Shown here piece by piece: positions 4,319-64,000 of a stretch of 64,000 nucleotides of DNA. The notes beneath the pieces are model-generated. The model was not told the DNA's origin. It was given only the letters and a program-made list of their open reading frames with translations, and searched no databases. Source of the DNA: an uncultured Bacteroidota bacterium. GTDB lineage: Bacteria; Bacteroidota; Bacteroidia; Bacteroidales; P3. The first letter of the stretch is position 1; every line of letters begins with the position of its first letter. Location: positions 248,001 to 312,000 of the forward strand of contig CADAWR010000003.1 in the NCBI GenBank assembly GCA_902791695.1. The letters run 5' to 3'. The translations under genes were made by a program, and so were the position numbers.

Positions 4319-5122
4319 ATGAAGCAACAGGTAATCATCATCACAGGGGCATCGTCGGGCTTTGGCAAAGCCACCGCCGAGATGCTTGCAGCCAAGGGAA
4401 ATGCCGTCTACGGCCTCTGCCGCCGCGAGATGCAGGACACCAATATCCGTTACCGCCAGTGCGACGTGCGCAACCGCGAGCAGATTGCCGCCGTGGTGGC
4501 GGAGATAGTCAAGGAGCAGGGTAGGGTGGACGTCCTCATCAACAATGCCGGTATGGGCATAGGAGGAGCTCTAGAGCTGGCGACAGAAGAGGAGATAGAC
4601 CTGCAGATGGGCACCAACTTCATGGGCTGCGTGAACATGTGCCAGGCCGTGCTGCCCTACATGCGCAAGGCGCACAAGGGCAAGATTATCAACCTCAGCT
4701 CCATCGGCGGTGTGATGGGATTGCCTTACCAAGGCTTCTACTCCGCCTCCAAGTTCGCCATCGAAGGCTTCACCGAGGCCCTTGCCGCCGAGGTTACAGG
4801 CTTCGGCATACGCGTCTGCATGGTTGAGCCTGGAGATTTCGCCACAGGCTTCACCGGCAGCCGCAAGAACAGCCAGGCAACCATGAACGACCCGGACTAC
4901 GGCCCCATCTTCAAACGTAGCCTCGCCATCATTGAGAAAGAGGAGAATGGCGGCTTACAGCCTGAGGTGCTGGCTCGCCGCATAGTGAAACTTGTGGAGA
5001 AAAAGAAACCGCCGCTGCGCAACGTCGTCGCCAACCTGGAGCAGTGGCTCTCCACCGTCATCAAACGCGTGCTGACGGGCAACCAAATGGTGGGAATACT
5101 GAGGGATTACTACAAGAGCTAA
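4319..5122 (+). CDS. short-chain dehydrogenase/reductase (SDR)
   Basis: 267 residues, the normal size of a classical SDR. The Rossmann motif TGASSGFG lies at 9-16, NNAG near 75-78, a serine in NLSS at 127-128 and the catalytic YSASK at 141-145. It is a cytosolic NAD(P)-dependent oxidoreductase with unknown substrate. It has its own promoter and stands alone on the plus strand. Its stop overlaps by 4 bp the stop of the convergent gene at 5119. The basic C-terminal end (KKKPPLRN...VIKRVL) resembles SDRs acting on lipids or sterols, but this is weak. Confidence 0.88.
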   Translation: MKQQVIIITGASSGFGKATAEMLAAKGNAVYGLCRREMQDTNIRYRQCDVRNREQIAAVVAEIVKEQGRVDVLINNAGMGIGGALELATEEEIDLQMGTNFMGCVNMCQAVLPYMRKAHKGKIINLSSIGGVMGLPYQGFYSASKFAIEGFTEALAAEVTGFGIRVCMVEPGDFATGFTGSRKNSQATMNDPDYGPIFKRSLAIIEKEENGGLQPEVLARRIVKLVEKKKPPLRNVVANLEQWLSTVIKRVLTGNQMVGILRDYYKS

Positions 5123-5799
5123 TCGCCACTATTGCCAACAGTGTCTGGAGCGATTATCTCCCAAGGTTCTGTTGGTGCTGGGATTAAAACATCCCGAATG
5201 CGCCCATAGAGGATCAGGTCATTCTTCATAGCACTACCTAACGGGTGCACTTCAAAACCAGGGTGGACTAAAAGACCGAAATGGATTTTGCTACCCGAGA
5301 GATCCCTTGAGGCACTATGGTCGCCATCAAATCGGCCATTAAAGTCCCACAGACGTGGGTCGTGCGGACTGGTAATTAGTAGCCCCATCTTTTGCAGCAT
5401 ATTCTTCTGGCCGACAACAAGCACGGGCCGCAGATAACGAAACCATCCGGCGTCATAGTACGGCACATCGCGAAGTTCATCTTCGCTCGGTGGCATCACT
5501 ACGCTGCGTACCCATGTATCGCGCGACAACGTTAAGCCTTTATAATGCATCAACGTGTCGCCAAACTGCAGCACAAGAACAGAATAAGTACCAGCGGCAA
5601 CCGGCGGCAGAGTATAGTTGCCGGCATAGTCGGTCACCGCCATCGCCCGACTCCGCCCGTCCTGCATCAGGTGCACAAAGCAGAAGGGTAGGGGGTTGCC
5701 GTCAGCACCGTTTATCACTGTGCCCGTCACCCTCACATAGTCCTGCGCCACAGCATACGAAGCAAAAAGCAACGCTGCGAAAAGAGCAACATGTTTCAT
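5119..5799 (-). CDS. secreted carboxypeptidase-regulatory-like domain protein
   Basis: 226 residues. The start is the ATG of MKHVALF (5799); a TTG nine bases upstream is less likely. A Sec signal peptide ends near ASYAVAQ. It is followed by a beta-sandwich of the CarboxypepD_reg-like type (VTGTVINGADGNPLPFC, then DYAGNYTLPPVAAGTYSV), as found at the N-terminus of SusC/TonB receptors, but here with no barrel. The rest (about 100-226) is not recognised. It lies 12 bp downstream of the membrane-tethered sigma factor gene and is very likely co-transcribed, so it may be part of the same signalling unit. Confidence 0.65.
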   Translation of the reverse strand: MKHVALFAALLFASYAVAQDYVRVTGTVINGADGNPLPFCFVHLMQDGRSRAMAVTDYAGNYTLPPVAAGTYSVLVLQFGDTLMHYKGLTLSRDTWVRSVVMPPSEDELRDVPYYDAGWFRYLRPVLVVGQKNMLQKMGLLITSPHDPRLWDFNGRFDGDHSASRDLSGSKIHFGLLVHPGFEVHPLGSAMKNDLILYGRIRDVLIPAPTEPWEIIAPDTVGNSGD

Positions 5800-5811: not shown

Positions 5812-6795
5812 TTACATATCAAGCATTATCGGCGGTCGACGCCCCACCTGTATGCGATAACTGACACCGTCGCGGAGAAAGCCCACAACACATATACCAT
5901 TGCACACCTGCGATGATACAAGCGCACCACCCTGCACATACACACTAACCCTTTCGCCATATATACCTGTGACTATAAGTTGCCGCATGGAGACCACAAT
6001 TATAGGCTCTGGCAACATGGCCTCCAGCCCCGCTGGCAATGTGTCACATTCGCCGTTAATGCACGAGATAAGAGCCTTAGCATCAGCATCGGGCAACCGT
6101 TCCACACGCACTGGCGAGCAGGATGTCTCATCCTGCAGTATATCCTCTGGCTGGCTTCCCTTGACAACATCTTGTGGCTTCGTGGACGGCATTTCTCCCC
6201 GTAGCGCTCCCTTATCTTCTTTCTGATGTACTTTCTCTATCACCGTCTTACGCCACGACGGTACCACGGCGACAGCCAATGTAGACAACACCAGCACCAA
6301 GAACAATATCAGTAACACTTGCCGCATCTTTACTACAGCCCTGTGCATGCGCTGGTACACAGCATCGCGTTTCAGCCCCATAATGGAGGCAATCTCGTCC
6401 GCTTTGTAACCCTCCATCCGCAACCGCATCATGTGCTGTTCGTCGGGGCTGAGCGATGCCATAATATCCTCAATATTCTCTCCGTCACACAACGATGCCT
6501 CGTCAGTCAAACTATCCGTCTGCTCAGATGTTAGGAGCATCGTCTCTACTGACGGCTTACGAAGCTTATGGTTAATGGTTGTTCGGGTTAACCAATAAAC
6601 CCAAGCACGCTTTTCACCATGTGTGGCATCAGGTATCAACTCTTTGAAATGAAGCCAAAGCGCAATGGACACTTCTTGTACCAGATCGCGGCAGCGCTCA
6701 TAGTCACCGCCCGATCTTAACCAGCACATCCGCCATATCATATTGCGATGACGTCGCAACAATTCTGTGTATGCTCTTTGAGCGTCCATCTGCAT
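5812..6795 (-). CDS. ECF-like sigma factor fused to a membrane helix and a T9SS sorting-domain-like C-terminus
   Basis: 327 residues, roughly twice a normal ECF sigma factor. Region 2 spans about 11-80 (RCRDLVQEVSIALW, then WVYWLTRTTINHKLRK). Region 4 spans about 105-157 (LSPDEQHMMRLRMEGYKADE, then a helix-turn-helix to MHRAVVKMRQ). It runs straight into a strong transmembrane helix at 158-178, a polar linker at 179-262 and a beta-rich C-terminal domain at 264-327. That domain has the pattern L-I-V-T-G-x-x-G-E-x-V-S-V-Y, then G-V-x-x-x-I-x-V-G. It lines up with the C-terminal sorting domain of the T9SS cargo at 62846 (LVVAGATGEDVALY). Expected topology is sigma domains in the cytoplasm and tail in the periplasm. 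The gene lies 70 bp after the barrel gene at 6866 and 12 bp before the gene at 5119. The sigma assignment is firm; the sensing role is inference. Confidence 0.8.
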   Translation of the reverse strand: MQMDAQRAYTELLRRHRNMIWRMCWLRSGGDYERCRDLVQEVSIALWLHFKELIPDATHGEKRAWVYWLTRTTINHKLRKPSVETMLLTSEQTDSLTDEASLCDGENIEDIMASLSPDEQHMMRLRMEGYKADEIASIMGLKRDAVYQRMHRAVVKMRQVLLILFLVLVLSTLAVAVVPSWRKTVIEKVHQKEDKGALRGEMPSTKPQDVVKGSQPEDILQDETSCSPVRVERLPDADAKALISCINGECDTLPAGLEAMLPEPIIVVSMRQLIVTGIYGERVSVYVQGGALVSSQVCNGICVVGFLRDGVSYRIQVGRRPPIMLDM

Positions 6796-6865
6796 ATATA
6801 ATACCCACTTTTTACCCCAAATCTTACATCTGGAGCAAAAAAATGTATAGAATATGCCCTGTTAA

Positions 6866-7621
6866 CTACAAAAACATGTAGAATACCCCGAGGGTACCAT
6901 AGATGGGGTAGAGAGGCTGCTCAACGGTCTTGAAACCGGCCTTGAAGATGCTCGTGAAGCCCACTGTGAGGTCCAGCGAGAAACCAAGACGTGACCATGG
7001 TAACCAGTCGACACCAACGGTGGCGCCGGCCTGCAGTTTGCGCATGTCGTCGGAGAAGTCGTATGTGGCCTGAGCCTCAGGGGTGTCACCTATGATGATC
7101 TTCGGGCCTGTGGGGCCTCCACGACGTATGTATCCGTCAGAAGCCACACCCGTGAACTTATTGTTCAGCAGCAGCGAACCATAGACGCCGGCACGCAGCT
7201 CCAGCTTGGGGCTGATTGTGTAAGTGGCACACACGGGCAGCGTGAGCATCAGCATGGATATCTGTTGGCCAACATGTCCAGTGAATACACCCTCTATGCT
7301 CTCCGTCCCCTGCCGCATCTCCATGTGGTATCCTTTGGTCCTCACGGCGACATCCATGGCCTTGCTCTCCACGAAAAGTCCTGCCGACACGCCCCAGCGC
7401 CCAGTCAAAGGCTGCACAGCGTCCACTCCCGCACGGAACGATGGGGTAAGCCGGAATGCATCAATACCCTCGATGGCCTCAGGCATGCCGTATGGCGTCG
7501 AGGCACCGATACTATAGCCTGCCTTCACCTTGAGCGAAAGGCCGTCGCCCAACCCTTCCGCCATCACATGCACCGTCGGCAGCACCATGGCGAGTACCAA
7601 TATTATGAGCGTCTTTTTCAT
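6866..7621 (-). CDS. outer-membrane beta-barrel protein (PorT-like fold)
   Basis: 251 residues with a signal peptide (MKKTLIILVLAMVLPTVHVMA). Alternating hydrophobic strands, rich in Gly and aromatic residues, end in VFYMFL, a C-terminal aromatic typical of OM barrels. The pattern (GVSAGLFVESKAMD, TYTISPKLELRAGVYGS) is that of Bacteroidota outer-membrane beta-barrel families. Its ATG overlaps the stop of the PCMD lipoprotein gene (TAATG), so the two are translationally coupled. Specific function unknown. Confidence 0.72.
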   Translation of the reverse strand: MKKTLIILVLAMVLPTVHVMAEGLGDGLSLKVKAGYSIGASTPYGMPEAIEGIDAFRLTPSFRAGVDAVQPLTGRWGVSAGLFVESKAMDVAVRTKGYHMEMRQGTESIEGVFTGHVGQQISMLMLTLPVCATYTISPKLELRAGVYGSLLLNNKFTGVASDGYIRRGGPTGPKIIIGDTPEAQATYDFSDDMRKLQAGATVGVDWLPWSRLGFSLDLTVGFTSIFKAGFKTVEQPLYPIYGTLGVFYMFL

Positions 7622-8784
7622 TACTTTGCAGTGCCGTTGGTATTGTAGGTAACCTCCACCTCGTCGATATACAGCGTGCTGCCTATGGCGCCCTCAAAGC
7701 TGTCGCCACCTTTGCTGGAGGAGAACACGAGCGTCCAGCTATAACCGAATGCCGCCAGCACAGAGGCATCGACAGAGCCCTCATCGAATGTCATCTCGAA
7801 ACGCGTCCACTCGCTGGTGGCAGGCAGCGAGGCCACCTGAGCCTTAGTAACAATATACGGGCTGGTGAGCACATCGTCGCCATAGAGATGGATGCTCTCG
7901 CCTGCAGCGTTCTGGTTACGGAAGAACACTGCATAGATATTGGCCTCGTCAGTACGTCCTGGGACAATATCCATATTGGCATTGGTGAACTCGGCGCCAG
8001 GCTGGTACTTATAATAGCCAGCCACCTTGACGGGCTGCCTGTTCACCGGTATACCAAACACCGTGCAGCGGAGCGGGTTCGACATCACCATACTGCCGTC
8101 AAAAGAGCCAATGAACAGGTTGCCGGCAGCTATAGGCTTGTGCATCAGACGGGCCAGATAGCCGGCATCTCTCGTGGTCAGGCACAGACCCTTGCCCTGG
8201 TATCCGTTGGGCGTCTGGCTGGTGGGGTACTGCTCTGGGGTGTAGTCGCTATGCACCACGGCAAAGCCGGCGTTGCCCGAAGCCCATATATTTTCTCTCT
8301 GACCGTAGGGATTGATCTCATAGAACACATGGTATGTGGCACCTTTTTCCAATGTTTCCGCATGCTCAAAGCTGTAAAGCGTCATCGTATCCACAATGGC
8401 TTGCCGCTCCTTGAATACAACCTTGTATTGGCGGCTGTGATTGCCGTCCTCCGCAGTAACGGTGTAGGTCACCGCCCCAGCAGAGAAATCCTGCAACGAG
8501 CCGTTGGCGGGGTTTATCGTGGATCCCTCGGTAATGCTGAAGCTCACCGGCATCTGCGGTAATGCGCCGAGCGACTTCACCCAGAAGACTATCTCCTCAT
8601 CCGACGATGCAATGTTGTCGTGGCGCATGTCGGCCTTATTGTAGAAATACTGCTCGTATTGTGCACCATCGACCCATGCACTCGTTATGTCGCATTCGCT
8701 GTTTTTGGGCGTATCCTTCGAGCAGGATACGATACAAGCCATGGCGAGTACTGCCGCCATAAATCCACTAACAATCTTTTTCAT
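7621..8784 (-). CDS. PCMD-domain lipoprotein
   Basis: 387 residues. A lipoprotein signal ends in MACIVSCSKD, with the lipobox Cys near residue 21. An Ig-like N-terminal segment (about 35-130) is followed by a jelly-roll-like part (SFEHAETLEKG, then PVKVAGYYKYQPG, then ETTFDEGS-like and YIDEVEVTYN at the end). This matches the 'putative carbohydrate metabolism domain' (PCMD) lipoproteins of Bacteroidota. It sits 11 bp after the GNAT gene and is coupled to the barrel gene. Ligand unknown; carbohydrate binding is only suggested by the family name. Confidence 0.72.
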   Translation of the reverse strand: MKKIVSGFMAAVLAMACIVSCSKDTPKNSECDITSAWVDGAQYEQYFYNKADMRHDNIASSDEEIVFWVKSLGALPQMPVSFSITEGSTINPANGSLQDFSAGAVTYTVTAEDGNHSRQYKVVFKERQAIVDTMTLYSFEHAETLEKGATYHVFYEINPYGQRENIWASGNAGFAVVHSDYTPEQYPTSQTPNGYQGKGLCLTTRDAGYLARLMHKPIAAGNLFIGSFDGSMVMSNPLRCTVFGIPVNRQPVKVAGYYKYQPGAEFTNANMDIVPGRTDEANIYAVFFRNQNAAGESIHLYGDDVLTSPYIVTKAQVASLPATSEWTRFEMTFDEGSVDASVLAAFGYSWTLVFSSSKGGDSFEGAIGSTLYIDEVEVTYNTNGTAK

Positions 8785-29233: not shown

Positions 29234-32200
29234 TTACTTCTTGATGACGCGGCATGTGGCCGAGGCGTCGCCGTTGCGGAGGCGCAGCACATAGGTGCCG
29301 GCTGGCAGCGTGGCCATGTCGAGCGAATGCACGTCGTTGCGGCGCACTAGCATGCGACCGTTAAGGTCGAAGAGCGTTGCCTCGTCGACACTGCGGCTGA
29401 AGTGGACGGTGTTGACGGTGGGGTTGGGGTAGACGTTTATCTGGCCGCCGTCGACGGTGACAATACCGACACCGGGGGTTGTGTCGAAGGTAAGTATCAG
29501 CGTCACCACGCTGTCGCAACCGAACACGGTAGCGAAGGTCTGTGTGTATTCGCCGTCGGTGGTGTATACCGTGCCGTTCCATGAGTAGATACTGTCGAGG
29601 CAGAGGTATTCTACGGTGTCTGCAACGGATGGGTGTACCACGACATCAACGCCGATGATGCTGTCGCACTGTCCGGGGACAGAACTGGGCAGGGTGTCGA
29701 GGAAGCTTATGCTTGTGTTGTAAACCGTGCCGTTCCATATGCAGCTGTCGCAGCCTACTACAGTGTCGCGCAGGGAATAGGCGGTACGAATGGTGTAGTT
29801 GTAGATGGTTACTGTCTCGTTGGCCGCCACGGTATAGGCTGGCAGAGGTTCCGTGCCGGTGTAGCAGGTGTCGATGTCGGCGAAGATAACATTGTGCATT
29901 ATGCGCGGTAAGGTGACATCGTCAATCCATACGCAGTCGCTACCACTAGCCTGGCTGATATCTTTTTCGTAAGAGAACTTAAAGGTGTGTGTGCCGGCAG
30001 TCACGGGAAATGCGGCGCGTGTCCAGTCGATTTCGCCGCTGTTGTTGGAGGTTATCATATCGGTGCCGTCGATATAGAAATGGAACTTGTCATAGTTGCG
30101 TTCGGACGAAACCTTATAGTAGAAAGCGATGCTGTCTGGACGGGTATAGGTGCAGCTGAGGGTGGTCTCGGATTTTCCATTGTAGTTGGATAGATTCTGT
30201 GCCGAGCGTATGGAGTGAGTGCCGTTGTGGGAAATGTCGGTGACAATAATCCACGGTTTGTTGCCTTGCGTCCATCCGGAGAAGTTGAAATTGTTTTCGA
30301 AGGTCTCGCATGACTGAGCGCCGAGATAGACTGACAAGGGGTTTGAGACTGGGGAGTTAGTGGATGCGAACGAGAGTTGCATGTCGATAGGCAGTTCGAC
30401 ATTCTGAGGAAGGCTGGCATCGGCGTTGATGGTGAACAGGGAGGTCACGCTGTCGCCTGTGGCGATGTTTACGGCAGGCGTTGAGGTCGGGCTTACGGTG
30501 AGCAGCGCTGCCGGTGAATAGAGTGTGAGTTGTGCTGCATTCAGAGGTGCATGGCCGGCGTTGCGCACGGTTGCCGTGAAGCTGGTGGAAGTGCCGGGCA
30601 GCATGACGAAGTCGCTGCTGGACACTGATAGCACAGGCGAAGGTGCAACAATGGTGAGAGGCAAGAAACTGACGGCGGGTGTGGTGCAGCCAGTCCATTG
30701 TACGGTGGCAGTGAGGGTGATGTTGGTGAGGTCAGCAGCGGCAGGGTTGATGACAGCCAGGATCTGATTGTTGACATCTAATTGTGCACCCGAATTGACA
30801 GAGCCGAGGTTGAGACTGTCGGTGATGAGCGTCAGCATGTTGTTAGAGCTTGTCAGGCGCATGGTCACATTTTGGGCGTCAGTATTACCGGCGTTTTCGA
30901 CAACGAAGTTGAGCATGACGGTATCGCCAGCGACAAGCGCAGCGGCCGGGGTGACGGAGTTTACGGTCACAAAAGCATTCTGTGGGTTGATTATGGATAT
31001 AGTATGGAAAGCAGTGCGATATTGGGAGGCGCTGGCAGTTATCTCATAGCCGCCTATGGCCAGGTTTGAGGGAAGTTGTAATGTGGCGAGCCCTGAGGCA
31101 TTTGCCCATGCGGCTGCCTTGACGGTATGGGTGGCGGTGTCGGTCAGTGCCACATAGGCATAAGGTGCCGCAGTCACATTGAGTGTCGTGGCGCCGTAGG
31201 TTATTGCGGAAGGGGCGTTGACGGTCATTAGAGAAGCCTGAGTCAGGTAGTTCATCACCGAAGGATCGCCCATAAGATGATATATCTCCCAGTAATAGTT
31301 GGCGAGGCTGGAACCAGAGGACTGTACAGCCATGTTGCCGAAATAGACAAGTGAGCTTTGGTTGGTGGCCCATTCGCTAAAAGCTTCGTTGTGGGTGTGG
31401 AAGCTGCGGTCGTAGACACCGAGGTTGCTGGCGTTGTAAGCCATGGAGATATTTGCATTGATGGTGCTGCGTACACCTACGGCCCAGTAGAAGTCCTCGT
31501 CCCAATAGGTTACTTCGCTACCGCCAATATAACCCACAGCGCCACAGTAGTTGTTTCTGCGCAGCAGAGCCTCTCCAAAGCATTCACTCTCTCCAAACAT
31601 GTTGGTTTGGCAGCAGTTGCCTATCATGATGCCGAACTTCTGCGTGTTGGTCATGCTGGGGACATGGCTTGTCTCAAAGCCGGGGTTGTACCAACCGGAA
31701 GAGCTGCCGTGAGCGGTGTAGTTGATAAAACCTGCACCTTGGCTGTAATAGTTGCGAATTGTGGCAGCGTTGGACGAAGCGTTGCTGGACACAGTTACAT
31801 TGGTGACACCTTGCGGCACTATGGATGTATTATTCTTGAAGTAATAAACGTTGCTGAAGCCATGGGCACCGTTGAAATAGTTGGTGATGCCGTAGTCCAT
31901 GGCGGGATCGCCGTGTGTGTAGCCGTGGTCGCCAGAACTGCCACCGTCGATACCAGCTACCATAACGGCGCGGTCGAGGAACGACGGGTCGGCGAAGGTG
32001 TACTGCTCATACATAAGGGTTTTCTGTATCTGCGGTATCAGTTGCTCGACATTCTGTGCAGAGAAGCGGCCATAGTGGCAGTCGGGGATGATGTCGCCGG
32101 AGGTCCATGTGCAGTAGTAAAGGTCGGTGACATGGCTATTTCGTTCGGTACCGTTGAAAGCTGGAATTTGCGCCACATCGCCAACGAGTAGCACATAGGT

Positions 32201-33058
32201 AGGTGCAGGATTGGCGGCGGTAGCGTTGGTGTACTGGCTTTGCAGATAGGCTTTTATGGAGGTTGTGGTGGTGCCTACGGCGGCCTCGTCAGTGTAGACA
32301 ATATCGGCAAGGAAGCCTTTGCGCTTCTTCCACTGCACGAAGGTGCCCATATGGCCGCGGAACATGCTGTTGGCCACAATGATGTATCGCACAGGTGCGG
32401 CATTGCTCACCGTCTTGGGATATAGGCTGTTCAAGGCGTTGGCGCCGCTATGGAAGGCGGGACTGTAGTAGCGGTTGAAGAGTTTTTGTGTGGCTTCGAC
32501 ATCGGGATTAGTGTAGATGACAGTGACAGTAGCCTTGCGGCAGACGATAAGCTGGCCACTGACGGGGTTATAACTTACAGGTGAGAACTGGAGGCGGGCA
32601 AGGTTGCGGTCGCGGGCTATGCCGACAGGCTCAACAAAAGCTTGGCGTTCGCCGACAAAGGCATTCCATGAATAAACCTCATGGAGCATGAATAACTTGA
32701 AGGCAGAGGTGTCGCTCTTGCTGCGTGACGGCTGTGTGGGCACAACCAAGTGCTTCAGAGGACCGATGGTGTCGTAAATTGCGTTAGTGACTTCAACTTT
32801 GAAGCCCTCGCACAGTGGCACCTCGATGATACGCGAGAAAACAGGCAGCGCGGGTGAACCATAGTTGTCCAATGACAGGCTGTAGCCGTCGATTGTTACG
32901 GTGCTGAATGTCTCGCCGTCGAGCACCGTTTGCCCGATTTGCACATCACCTGTGTTGAATTGCACCTTCAGGCTGTTGTAGTCATCTTTCACAACTTTCT
33001 GTGCCATTACGGGTATCATGAACCCGATGGCGATAAAAAATACTATGAGCTTTTTCAT
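29234..33058 (-). CDS. C25 (gingipain-like) cysteine peptidase with T9SS type A sorting domain
   Basis: 1274 residues. A signal peptide (1-19) is followed by a propeptide-like region (about 20-215), the caspase-like C25 catalytic domain (about 220-620), Ig-like modules (about 620-960), a jelly-roll (about 970-1090), two repeats of a CDS..WNGTVY..CDS module (about 1100-1200) and a sorting domain. Catalytic His is H450 (YTAHGSSSGW) and Cys is most likely C482 (IGNCCQTNMFGES). The end has the type A pattern: NVYPNPTVN, ATLFDLNGRML and LPAGTYVLRL. It should be exported by T9SS to the surface. It starts 14 bp after DPP11, so they form a protease operon. Confidence 0.93.
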   Translation of the reverse strand: MKKLIVFFIAIGFMIPVMAQKVVKDDYNSLKVQFNTGDVQIGQTVLDGETFSTVTIDGYSLSLDNYGSPALPVFSRIIEVPLCEGFKVEVTNAIYDTIGPLKHLVVPTQPSRSKSDTSAFKLFMLHEVYSWNAFVGERQAFVEPVGIARDRNLARLQFSPVSYNPVSGQLIVCRKATVTVIYTNPDVEATQKLFNRYYSPAFHSGANALNSLYPKTVSNAAPVRYIIVANSMFRGHMGTFVQWKKRKGFLADIVYTDEAAVGTTTTSIKAYLQSQYTNATAANPAPTYVLLVGDVAQIPAFNGTERNSHVTDLYYCTWTSGDIIPDCHYGRFSAQNVEQLIPQIQKTLMYEQYTFADPSFLDRAVMVAGIDGGSSGDHGYTHGDPAMDYGITNYFNGAHGFSNVYYFKNNTSIVPQGVTNVTVSSNASSNAATIRNYYSQGAGFINYTAHGSSSGWYNPGFETSHVPSMTNTQKFGIMIGNCCQTNMFGESECFGEALLRRNNYCGAVGYIGGSEVTYWDEDFYWAVGVRSTINANISMAYNASNLGVYDRSFHTHNEAFSEWATNQSSLVYFGNMAVQSSGSSLANYYWEIYHLMGDPSVMNYLTQASLMTVNAPSAITYGATTLNVTAAPYAYVALTDTATHTVKAAAWANASGLATLQLPSNLAIGGYEITASASQYRTAFHTISIINPQNAFVTVNSVTPAAALVAGDTVMLNFVVENAGNTDAQNVTMRLTSSNNMLTLITDSLNLGSVNSGAQLDVNNQILAVINPAAADLTNITLTATVQWTGCTTPAVSFLPLTIVAPSPVLSVSSSDFVMLPGTSTSFTATVRNAGHAPLNAAQLTLYSPAALLTVSPTSTPAVNIATGDSVTSLFTINADASLPQNVELPIDMQLSFASTNSPVSNPLSVYLGAQSCETFENNFNFSGWTQGNKPWIIVTDISHNGTHSIRSAQNLSNYNGKSETTLSCTYTRPDSIAFYYKVSSERNYDKFHFYIDGTDMITSNNSGEIDWTRAAFPVTAGTHTFKFSYEKDISQASGSDCVWIDDVTLPRIMHNVIFADIDTCYTGTEPLPAYTVAANETVTIYNYTIRTAYSLRDTVVGCDSCIWNGTVYNTSISFLDTLPSSVPGQCDSIIGVDVVVHPSVADTVEYLCLDSIYSWNGTVYTTDGEYTQTFATVFGCDSVVTLILTFDTTPGVGIVTVDGGQINVYPNPTVNTVHFSRSVDEATLFDLNGRMLVRRNDVHSLDMATLPAGTYVLRLRNGDASATCRVIKK

Positions 33059-62845: not shown

Positions 62846-64000
62846 TCAGAAGACAATCTTACGTACCGCCTGACCGCCGATGCGGAGTACATACACTCCG
62901 TGTCGGCGGATTGGTATATACTGGTGACCGCTTGCCGTCGAGCGCCAATGGCAGCGCCCCACGACGTCGTACAGGGCTACGTCCTCACCGGTAGCGCCGG
63001 CAACCACCAGCCCCCCTTCATGTCTCTCAATCCTTATGGGCAGGTTGTCACAGCATGAGGCAACAGAGACATTGCCGCTGTCGGCAAAATAGGCCACGAA
63101 TGTCCGGTCGGCGATAACGCTGAAGGTATAGGGGTTGGCGGCTATGGTGTCGCCATCCGACAGCCAATAGTCAAAGCGGTAGCCTGATGCAGGTGTTGCT
63201 GCTATGGTGGCTTGGGCGTATACGTCATATGTGCCGCCACCGGCGACGCTACCCTGCGTGCTGTCGCTGGCCGCCACGGTGACATTATAGCTTGGCATCG
63301 CCTGCAGCGGGCAGCCCGAAATACGTATGTCGGCACGGTATCGGAACACCTCGTTTATTGTTGCCGTTGCAGGGTTAGGATTGTATTGGCTTTCATTGGA
63401 GAAGCTTCCAGCCGACGTGTACTGCCCCGGGGTTGTTGTACAGTAGAAGTGGTTCCACAGATAGTAACCGCTGCCAAGGGAGCCGCTGTTGTCGTCTACG
63501 GCCACAACGAGATTGTCGGTACCGTTGTAGTAGAACGTGCTGTCGAGTTCGATGTCGTTCCATCCGTTCAATATCGCTACTGGGCCTTGATACACTTTAT
63601 GCAGCTGGGCCAAAGGAATGAAACTGCTGAATACGCTGGCGAAAGCGCTGTCGGTAGTAGTGCCAAGGTAGACCGTTACATTGCTTTTATACATATTTCT
63701 GTAGAGATCCACATAGTTGAATGACAGTTTGTTTATCTCCAACGGCCCTCCCAGTTCTTCTGCACGGTAAATCATCTGCGTGTAGGAATAGCGGTAAATG
63801 GTGTAGAACGGCAATGTTGGTTGGGTAGTGTCGGCTATGCCTACAGCATCCTCCCTGATATCACATTGGCCGGTAGTAAAGGTGTTCCAGTCCGAAAAGA
63901 CACTGCTGTCTCCAGCGGAGCAAATGCTCCTCACGCGCCATTGATACGAGGTCTCGGGGCTGAGCGATGCGAGCTGATGGCTTTGTCCTGCCACCACCAC
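62846..64000 (-). CDS. T9SS cargo protein, 3' part only (runs off the window)
   Basis: At least 384 residues; the 5' end lies beyond 64000. It begins in a fibronectin III module (LSPETSYQWRVRSICSAGDS). A beta-rich domain follows (about 45-230: FYTIYRYSYTQMIYRAEELG, LGTTTDSAF, YYNGTDNLVVAVDDNSGS), then an InlB-like B-repeat (ASGYRFDYWLSDGDTIAANP). The last domain is a type A-like sorting domain (GGLVVAGATGEDVALYDVVG, then HGVYVLRIGGQAVRKIVF). Likely surface-exported; function unknown. Confidence 0.82.
   Translation of the reverse strand: MVVAGQSHQLASLSPETSYQWRVRSICSAGDSSVFSDWNTFTTGQCDIREDAVGIADTTQPTLPFYTIYRYSYTQMIYRAEELGGPLEINKLSFNYVDLYRNMYKSNVTVYLGTTTDSAFASVFSSFIPLAQLHKVYQGPVAILNGWNDIELDSTFYYNGTDNLVVAVDDNSGSLGSGYYLWNHFYCTTTPGQYTSAGSFSNESQYNPNPATATINEVFRYRADIRISGCPLQAMPSYNVTVAASDSTQGSVAGGGTYDVYAQATIAATPASGYRFDYWLSDGDTIAANPYTFSVIADRTFVAYFADSGNVSVASCCDNLPIRIERHEGGLVVAGATGEDVALYDVVGRCHWRSTASGHQYIPIRRHGVYVLRIGGQAVRKIVF

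Follow-up and report, generated by a model that had tools for sequence, protein, structure and literature searches.

The window, the 64,000-nucleotide stretch of DNA analysed here, encodes on its minus strand a protein of 327 residues (positions 5812-6795, a single open frame) that runs from an ECF sigma factor through a transmembrane helix and a linker into a tail resembling the C-terminal sorting domains (CTDs) of T9SS cargo. It belongs to a fused family detected in a single genus of rumen-type Bacteroidales that possess a T9SS, and profile comparison shows the family's tails to share ancestry with T9SS type A sorting domains. We tentatively read the window protein, at a little short of an even chance, as an autoregulated ECF sigma factor that would be tethered to the membrane, would make contact with the T9SS through a pseudo-cargo sensor, would be freed by proteolysis and would then recognize its own promoter. 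The known route from the T9SS to gene control in Porphyromonas gingivalis passes through PorA, PorY, PorX and SigP; to our knowledge, SigP carries no such tail. If the reading is true, a sorting-type domain on the periplasmic end of a sigma factor would couple cargo production to export capacity in one molecule, a coupling testable with simple reporters, and this suggests a cell that monitors the condition of its secretion machinery and directly tunes its genes. The small set of known membrane-tethered sigma factors would thereby gain a Bacteroidales example with a new type of sensor, and a conserved promoter-like element lets a regulon be read from sequence alone.

The coordinates given for the gene in the initial annotation are correct, and its strand, absent there, is minus: the 327 codons are uninterrupted, and plus-strand frame 1 is broken by stops. 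The family alignment points to Met3 (6787-6789) as the actual start. Both sigma regions proposed earlier exceed their Pfam cut-offs, namely region 2 at residues 12-80 (6556-6762; PF04542, Sigma70_r2, 25.1 bits against a cut-off of 24), with an ECF sigma fold, and region 4 at residues 106-157 (6325-6480; PF08281, Sigma70_r4_2, 40.3 bits against 25.7). TIGR02937 supports them with 65.3 bits (cut-off 42.9), and a Foldseek search with the modelled fold returned SigL, SigH, SigW and Escherichia coli sigma E as the top PDB matches. The window protein is an ECF sigma factor with regions 2 and 4.

The transmembrane helix, initially placed at 158-178, is found as a hydropathy peak at residues 160-178 (6262-6318), the top 19-residue window of the protein with a mean of 3.22. 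It is conserved in two family alignments, in which an AxAVVPxWR motif overlaps the helix and continues after it. Region 4 stops at 157 and the helix begins at 160, and Pfam detects no anti-sigma domain between them. Beyond the helix, the polar linker and the C-terminal domain that had been noticed by eye reappear in the AlphaFold model as a mostly disordered stretch at residues 179-262 (6010-6261), with pLDDT below 50 at 199-238, 242-245 and 247-258, and a beta domain at residues 263-327 (5815-6009) with pLDDT of about 90. The sigma regions and the tail are both modelled with confidence; the strands of the tail span residues 265 to 326, so that the domain reaches the C-terminus, and the tail modelled alone stays a beta fold with a mean pLDDT of 88.9. 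The window protein is a membrane-tethered ECF fusion, with helix and extracytoplasmic part on one chain, in the topology that we predict for it. Its N-terminus is the sigma domain, followed by the anchor at 160-178, in place of the cleavable Sec signal peptide found on T9SS cargo.

A scan of 84,980 species yielded 67 distinct loci. Those matching well past the sigma part all derive from uncultured Bacteroidales or Bacteroidetes, and many are titled as coming from the rumen, reticulum, omasum or rectum of ruminants. When 'fused' is defined as the helix plus more than 100 residues beyond it, loci L089-L149 contain 51 fused sigma proteins (49 distinct C-terminal ends) in 40 loci; the tail was detected in 51 of 51 at E 1e-3, among them all 19 that lie outside the training set. 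Within the genus, at least 21 of 59 genomes have a match extending to residue 290 or further, with 36-48% identity and often with paralogues nearby. Order-wide, one of 206 genera matched at E 1e-30 (393 genomes, with at most five candidates scored per genome), and one of 12 genera did so within the same taxonomic family (190 genomes). A query made of region 4 and the helix, run at E 1e-6 over 184 genera (295 genomes), found no frame longer than 219 residues outside the protein's own genome. The initial annotation had proposed looking for this architecture across Bacteroidales; it recurs in further loci, and in these searches the family was detected in the one genus only. A frameshift, named there as a refuting result, or an assembly artefact is rejected by the 51 fused proteins, whose 40 loci come from many genomes assembled independently of one another, and sigma part and tail stand as one gene, with a single open frame in the window and the tail in every fused member.

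SprA is present in 56 of the 59 genomes of the genus, including 35 of the 35 that are complete and clean. The genome of the window has SprA at 2388 bits and 35 CTDs above the Pfam cut-off. Because the T9SS is also present in genomes in which no full-length member was seen, the family is not needed for the T9SS. The window itself holds a T9SS cargo protein of 1274 residues at 29234-33058, with a sorting domain above the Pfam cut-off (C3:277249-277434).

The case for homology between the tails and sorting domains is made by the family as a whole. An hhalign comparison of 31 family tails, leaving out L032 (fused, with a different ectodomain) and L025 (a duplicate tail), with 30 CTDs from the window's own genome gave 95.6% and a score of 42.1, against at most 1.24% (score 12.8) in 50 column shuffles and 0.21% for the reversed alignment. 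Profiles of CarboxypepD_reg domains, outer-membrane proteins and LRR bodies from the same loci gave 0.24-1.59%, and the tails of LRR neighbours 96-97%. The result was similar with the 25 short members only (94.2%) and with a second pair of alignments that overlaps the first in part (96.4%); with the window tail and its two closest relatives only, it was 27.8%. Searched against 910 ORFs, the 30-CTD profile recovered 27 of the 31 family members at E 10 or better, 19 of these at E 0.1 or better, ranking them among cargo and slightly lower; the window protein and three other members (4 of 31) had no match even at E 10. In the opposite direction, a profile of 25 short sigma tails run against 4994 ORFs gave 24 non-sigma matches, all at most 36 residues from the C-terminus, which comprised four family members cut at locus ends, two split relatives and 18 secreted-type proteins.

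One secreted-type protein that carries the same kind of C-terminal domain lies at the far end of the window (62846-64000, minus strand, extending beyond it). The initial annotation had already seen that its end resembles the sigma tail, and the likeness is borne out by the 31-tail profile, which matches residues 327-382 of its 384 at E 8.6e-6, and by the 25-short-tail profile at E 0.0033. DUF6383 scores 22.2 bits at this position of the genome, slightly below the cut-off of 23.7. Seven secreted neighbours with the sigma-tail subtype were scanned, of which two exceed the TIGR04183 cut-off (30.1 and 28.9 bits; cut-off 23) and three that of DUF6383. A P. gingivalis paper terms DUF6383 a putative T9SS targeting domain (PMC9722745), and DUF6383 matched in none of 14 control genomes. 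Several sites in the window's own genome, such as C4:21145-21357 and C22:713-850, are matched by both DUF6383 and Por_Secre_tail. Given this co-location, DUF6383 seems to represent one branch of the type A sorting domains of the T9SS.

The window tail is less easily named. Neither Pfam nor NCBIfam assigns it, with the whole protein or with the tail alone as query (for NCBIfam and the whole protein, among the best 25 of 60 matches), and eight short tails scanned alone gave nothing above any library cut-off, with two weak TIGR04183 matches (13.0 and 13.5 bits; cut-off 23) and two similarly weak beta-propeller matches. When nine sigma-bearing relatives were compared whole with Pfam, the highest PF18962 score was that of L050 (13.6 bits; cut-off 27), and L041 came nearest to the DUF6383 cut-off among the sigma-borne tails scanned (21.1 bits against 23.7). 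By eye, the short tails neither begin with YPNP nor finish in a lysine-rich stretch, two features common among the CTDs of the window's genome; near-canonical tail ends were seen by eye in L040, L042 and L050. The proposal that the tail resembles a sorting domain is thus upheld by profiles for the family, and the window tail itself is reached by no profile library; taken alone, it is too diverged in sequence for library naming, and the family's tails, homologous as they are, are not demonstrably working sorting domains.

For the tail, Foldseek gave mainly FN3 and other Ig-like domains, with FN3 on top, none at E 0.001 or better and no CTD among the best 50 of 1407 matches, so the structural comparison proposed for the tail yielded a beta domain at the C-terminus without singling out a sorting domain. 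With the tail profile as query, a sequence search of the PDB returned mainly WD40 repeats, with no T9SS CTD among the best 60 of 89 matches. In two of these entries, single repeats had independent E-values above 20, and some other rows had one stretch with E below 10. A random beta-hairpin resemblance of the WD40 or propeller type is rejected, as shuffled, reversed and unrelated profiles score near zero and the fold search is led by FN3. Type A CTDs are described as Ig-like beta sandwiches of seven strands that PorV recognizes with plasticity (PMC12618676), a description which the tail model matches loosely. The sigma-borne tails share with the domains of TIGR04183, PF18962 and DUF6383 (PF19910) a homologous domain at the extreme C-terminus. 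They differ in that sorting domains sit on cargo bearing signal peptides, whereas the sigma-borne tails sit on a membrane anchor and all those scanned fall below the curated cut-offs.

Immediately before the sigma gene, at 6798-6827 on the minus strand, lies a promoter-like element, GTAAGATT-N16-TATTAT, which is conserved among family upstream regions. Its general form before the sigma genes is GT[A/C/T]AGATT-N16-TATTAT, and two blocks with a 16-nt spacer are a typical ECF promoter layout. The strict element occurs in 38 of 84 upstream stretches, in 36 cases with precisely 16 nt between the two blocks, and was found in 0 of 200 shuffle rounds. The copy before the sigma gene is the single match in the window at up to three mismatches, the chance expectation of this lax scan being 0.22. 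In 991 kb of loci a looser element has 70 sites (reversed pattern, 0), of which 48 lie before sigma genes, a count that is biased because most of these loci were retrieved through their sigma genes. This bias is avoided by scanning whole genomes, which gave 27 sites (reversed pattern, 1), two in the window's genome and 25 in six others picked as carriers of the family. Fifteen of the 27 stand immediately before sigma genes, fused or bare (L210 included), five before genes with a CarboxypepD_reg domain according to Pfam (L203, L204, L205, L221 and L225), two before LRR_5 genes (L209 and L213, Pfam) and three before genes that look lipoprotein-like by eye (L206, L217 and L220, one with Lipocalin_4); the remainder are one before a 65-residue frame (L226) and one at a contig end (L202). 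The last, at G000:C10:209-238, is the second copy in the window's genome. As the second block is only about 8 nt before the family start codon in many sigma genes, such transcripts would be nearly leaderless. We read the element as a sign of autoregulation and of a small surface-protein regulon; the window sigma factor would itself recognize this element.

These elements can be assembled into a mechanism. The sigma domain would reside in the cytoplasm and be connected by one helix through the inner membrane to a flexible linker, which would hold the domain of the T9SS sorting superfamily in the periplasm. There, the tail would act as pseudo-cargo, handled by parts of the T9SS that recognize CTDs, such as a PorV-like shuttle or the periplasmic ring; being anchored, it could not leave. 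Engagement of the tail, or its displacement by real cargo, would decide whether the tether is cut by periplasmic and intramembrane proteases, and the cut would free the sigma domain to activate the promoter of its own gene and the promoters of surface-protein genes nearby. An M50 protease is present in the window's genome and in 14 of 14 control genomes as well, i.e. it is universal. Cargo mimicry in the narrow sense did not hold up: that the tail copies the neighbouring cargo is rejected, since the top match came from the same locus in one of 23 cases, where it was a split membrane relative, and the median rank of the local protein was 13 of 44. Because the tails are not especially like neighbouring cargo, one-to-one mimicry is weakened and general mimicry is left.

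The main rival, which we consider doubtful and yet the most serious of the alternatives, accepts the origin of the tail from a sorting domain and holds that it was co-opted as an ordinary Ig-like sensor for another periplasmic partner, for example the CarboxypepD_reg neighbour or a surface-protein signal, with no contact with the T9SS. The match ranks speak in its favour, as sigma tails often have their top non-sigma match in the tail of a split membrane protein and not in cargo, and local cargo was never the top match in the 23 cases; the same is true of the short tails, with no library match above cut-off. Near-canonical tail ends in L040, L042 and L050 pull in the other direction. A candidate partner is at hand in the window. 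The gene at 5119-5799, on the same minus strand, begins 12 nt past the sigma stop and encodes a secreted-type protein with a CarboxypepD_reg domain (Pfam, 34.6 bits; cut-off 32.3) and a signal peptide by eye; the initial annotation had described it as secreted and probably in the same transcript. Upstream of the sigma gene, also on the minus strand, Pfam identifies an outer-membrane beta-barrel protein (OMP_b-brl_2, 6866-7621) and a PCMD-domain protein that is lipoprotein-like by eye (7621-8784). A CarboxypepD_reg relative is immediately downstream of the fused sigma gene in 12 of 48 cases and immediately upstream in two, which together with the five element sites before such genes fits a co-opted sensor; it counts against this that such a relative adjoins the sigma gene in only 14 of the 48. 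The replacement of the tail by a lipoprotein-like domain in one member also speaks for this rival; retention of the tail in 51 of 51 fused proteins, despite very different linkers and LRR inserts, speaks against it.

The ectodomains of the family are varied. L032, which is the same as L044:3426-4592 (the stretches overlap), is a fused sigma-helix protein with another ectodomain and no tail; compared with 4,689 ORFs, this ectodomain has as its top two matches proteins with a lipoprotein-like start encoded just downstream (E 2.3e-8 and 4.5e-7). In the long members, of 780-815 residues, a signal-peptide-like stretch with a conserved Met and an xAQ end lies between the helix and the LRR part in eight of the eight aligned (L096:648-3095, L041:9936-12329, L123:6001-8388, L124:6001-8403, L106:3588-5930, L042:4711-7128, L136:416-2812 and L050:1293-3686). 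The end has the AxAQ form in one of the eight, and at position -3 six members have Thr, one has Ala and one has Pro. This stretch could be an internal start, a site where an LRR protein is cut off to be secreted separately, or a remnant of gene fusion. L108:5980-7020 and L114:5995-7011 have near-identical tails (dS 0.13) at a sigma dS of 1.35, a disparity that points to exchange of the tail by recombination. It is possible, though less likely than not, that the ectodomain was swapped several times, between a short linker with tail, an LRR part with a signal-peptide-like stretch and a lipoprotein-like domain, all of them kinds similar to exported products of the same loci.

The long members also bear on an unlikely explanation, in which the ectodomain is a real T9SS substrate that is cut from the membrane part and exported, its removal activating the sigma factor. 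All eight of them look, in their signal-peptide-like stretch, as if they contained a separable secreted protein, and CTDs are reported to be necessary and sufficient for export (PMC12618676). However, a -3 residue that is mostly Thr does not make a textbook cleavage site in all long members, and the window protein and the other short members have no such stretch and the most diverged tails.

Selection on the tail argues against a passive appendage, and the residue pattern noticed in the tail exceeds chance. Among the 40 aligned family members, G290 and G318 are invariant, and G277, E281 and C302 nearly so. Eleven pairs were compared, of which six have a tail dS above 0.1 and a finite ratio; in these six, tail dN/dS is 0.08-0.25, and in four of them it lies below that of the linker. 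The tail is, on these sequence comparisons, under purifying selection, and the idea that it is a degenerate relic is rejected by the dN/dS values and by its retention in 51 of 51. Least probable of the alternatives is a sigma factor active while bound to the membrane, with a tail that merely stabilizes or orients the protein and no regulated release, which the missing Pfam anti-sigma domain between region 4 and the helix would suit, but against which purifying selection on the tail, its near-invariant residues and the differing ectodomains of close sigma relatives speak. For these same three reasons, a sensing role is favoured.

Tethered ECF fusions as such are already known, and the new features here are the T9SS-type ectodomain, the promoter-like element and the split relatives; searches of open-licence full texts yielded, among the matches listed, no report of an ECF fusion with a T9SS-type domain and no anti-sigma domain. 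In IutY (ECF243) of Pseudomonas putida, an ECF is fused to a membrane anti-sigma part and is freed by Prc and RseP (PMC8999054), so that the ECF domain, the transmembrane part and the regulatory part are on a single chain, as in the window protein. They differ in that IutY has a fused anti-sigma factor and serves iron-starvation surface signalling, whereas in the window protein region 4 passes straight into the helix, the ectodomain is CTD-like and release is presumed. ECF52 (SCO4117 of Streptomyces coelicolor), ECF48 and ECF53 have a sigma domain, a transmembrane helix, a proline-rich linker and a small extracytoplasmic domain on one chain (PMC5826349, PMC8999054), and proteolytic release of ECF52 is expected (PMC8999054, PMC5826349). 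These three groups, unlike the window protein, carry a zinc-finger anti-sigma domain ahead of the helix; ECF52 has a carbohydrate-binding end and is described as exclusive to Actinobacteria. PorA of P. gingivalis is a CTD protein upstream of PorXY-SigP; its CTD binds PorV, and it feeds an ECF sigma factor controlling T9SS genes (PMC7712824). PorA stands on its own at the cell surface and signals by way of a two-component system, whereas the window protein has the sigma factor and the CTD-like domain in one molecule.

The split form of the system occurs in five loci (L057:2345-3947, L103:1488-3072, L132:5488-8480, L031:1501-3173 and L127:6001-7597), where a bare sigma gene directly precedes one whose product, a membrane protein, consists of a short N-terminal cytoplasmic part, a helix, a VP motif beyond it and the family tail. 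The motif reads VVPQWR in L031 and L132, and TVPDLR, TVPNLR and FVPSLH in the other three. Among the three split membrane proteins scanned, LRR_5 is above its cut-off in L057 and L132 and not in L103. The short cytoplasmic domain might be an anti-sigma domain, and the split pair looks like a sigma factor with its membrane sensor, the two being joined into one chain in the fused form. A quick sigma tree of 113 rows, with long branches and with four split-type membrane-protein rows included as sigma (L031_1965, L057_2345, L103_1957 and L127_6422), has a 40-row clade that is wholly fused (SH-aLRT 93), and the split sigma genes group elsewhere. Eight fused rows lie outside this clade, namely L032, L033, L041_5657, L042, L050, L120_8828 and L136, plus L115, which is fused according to the locus listing and labelled standalone in the tree.
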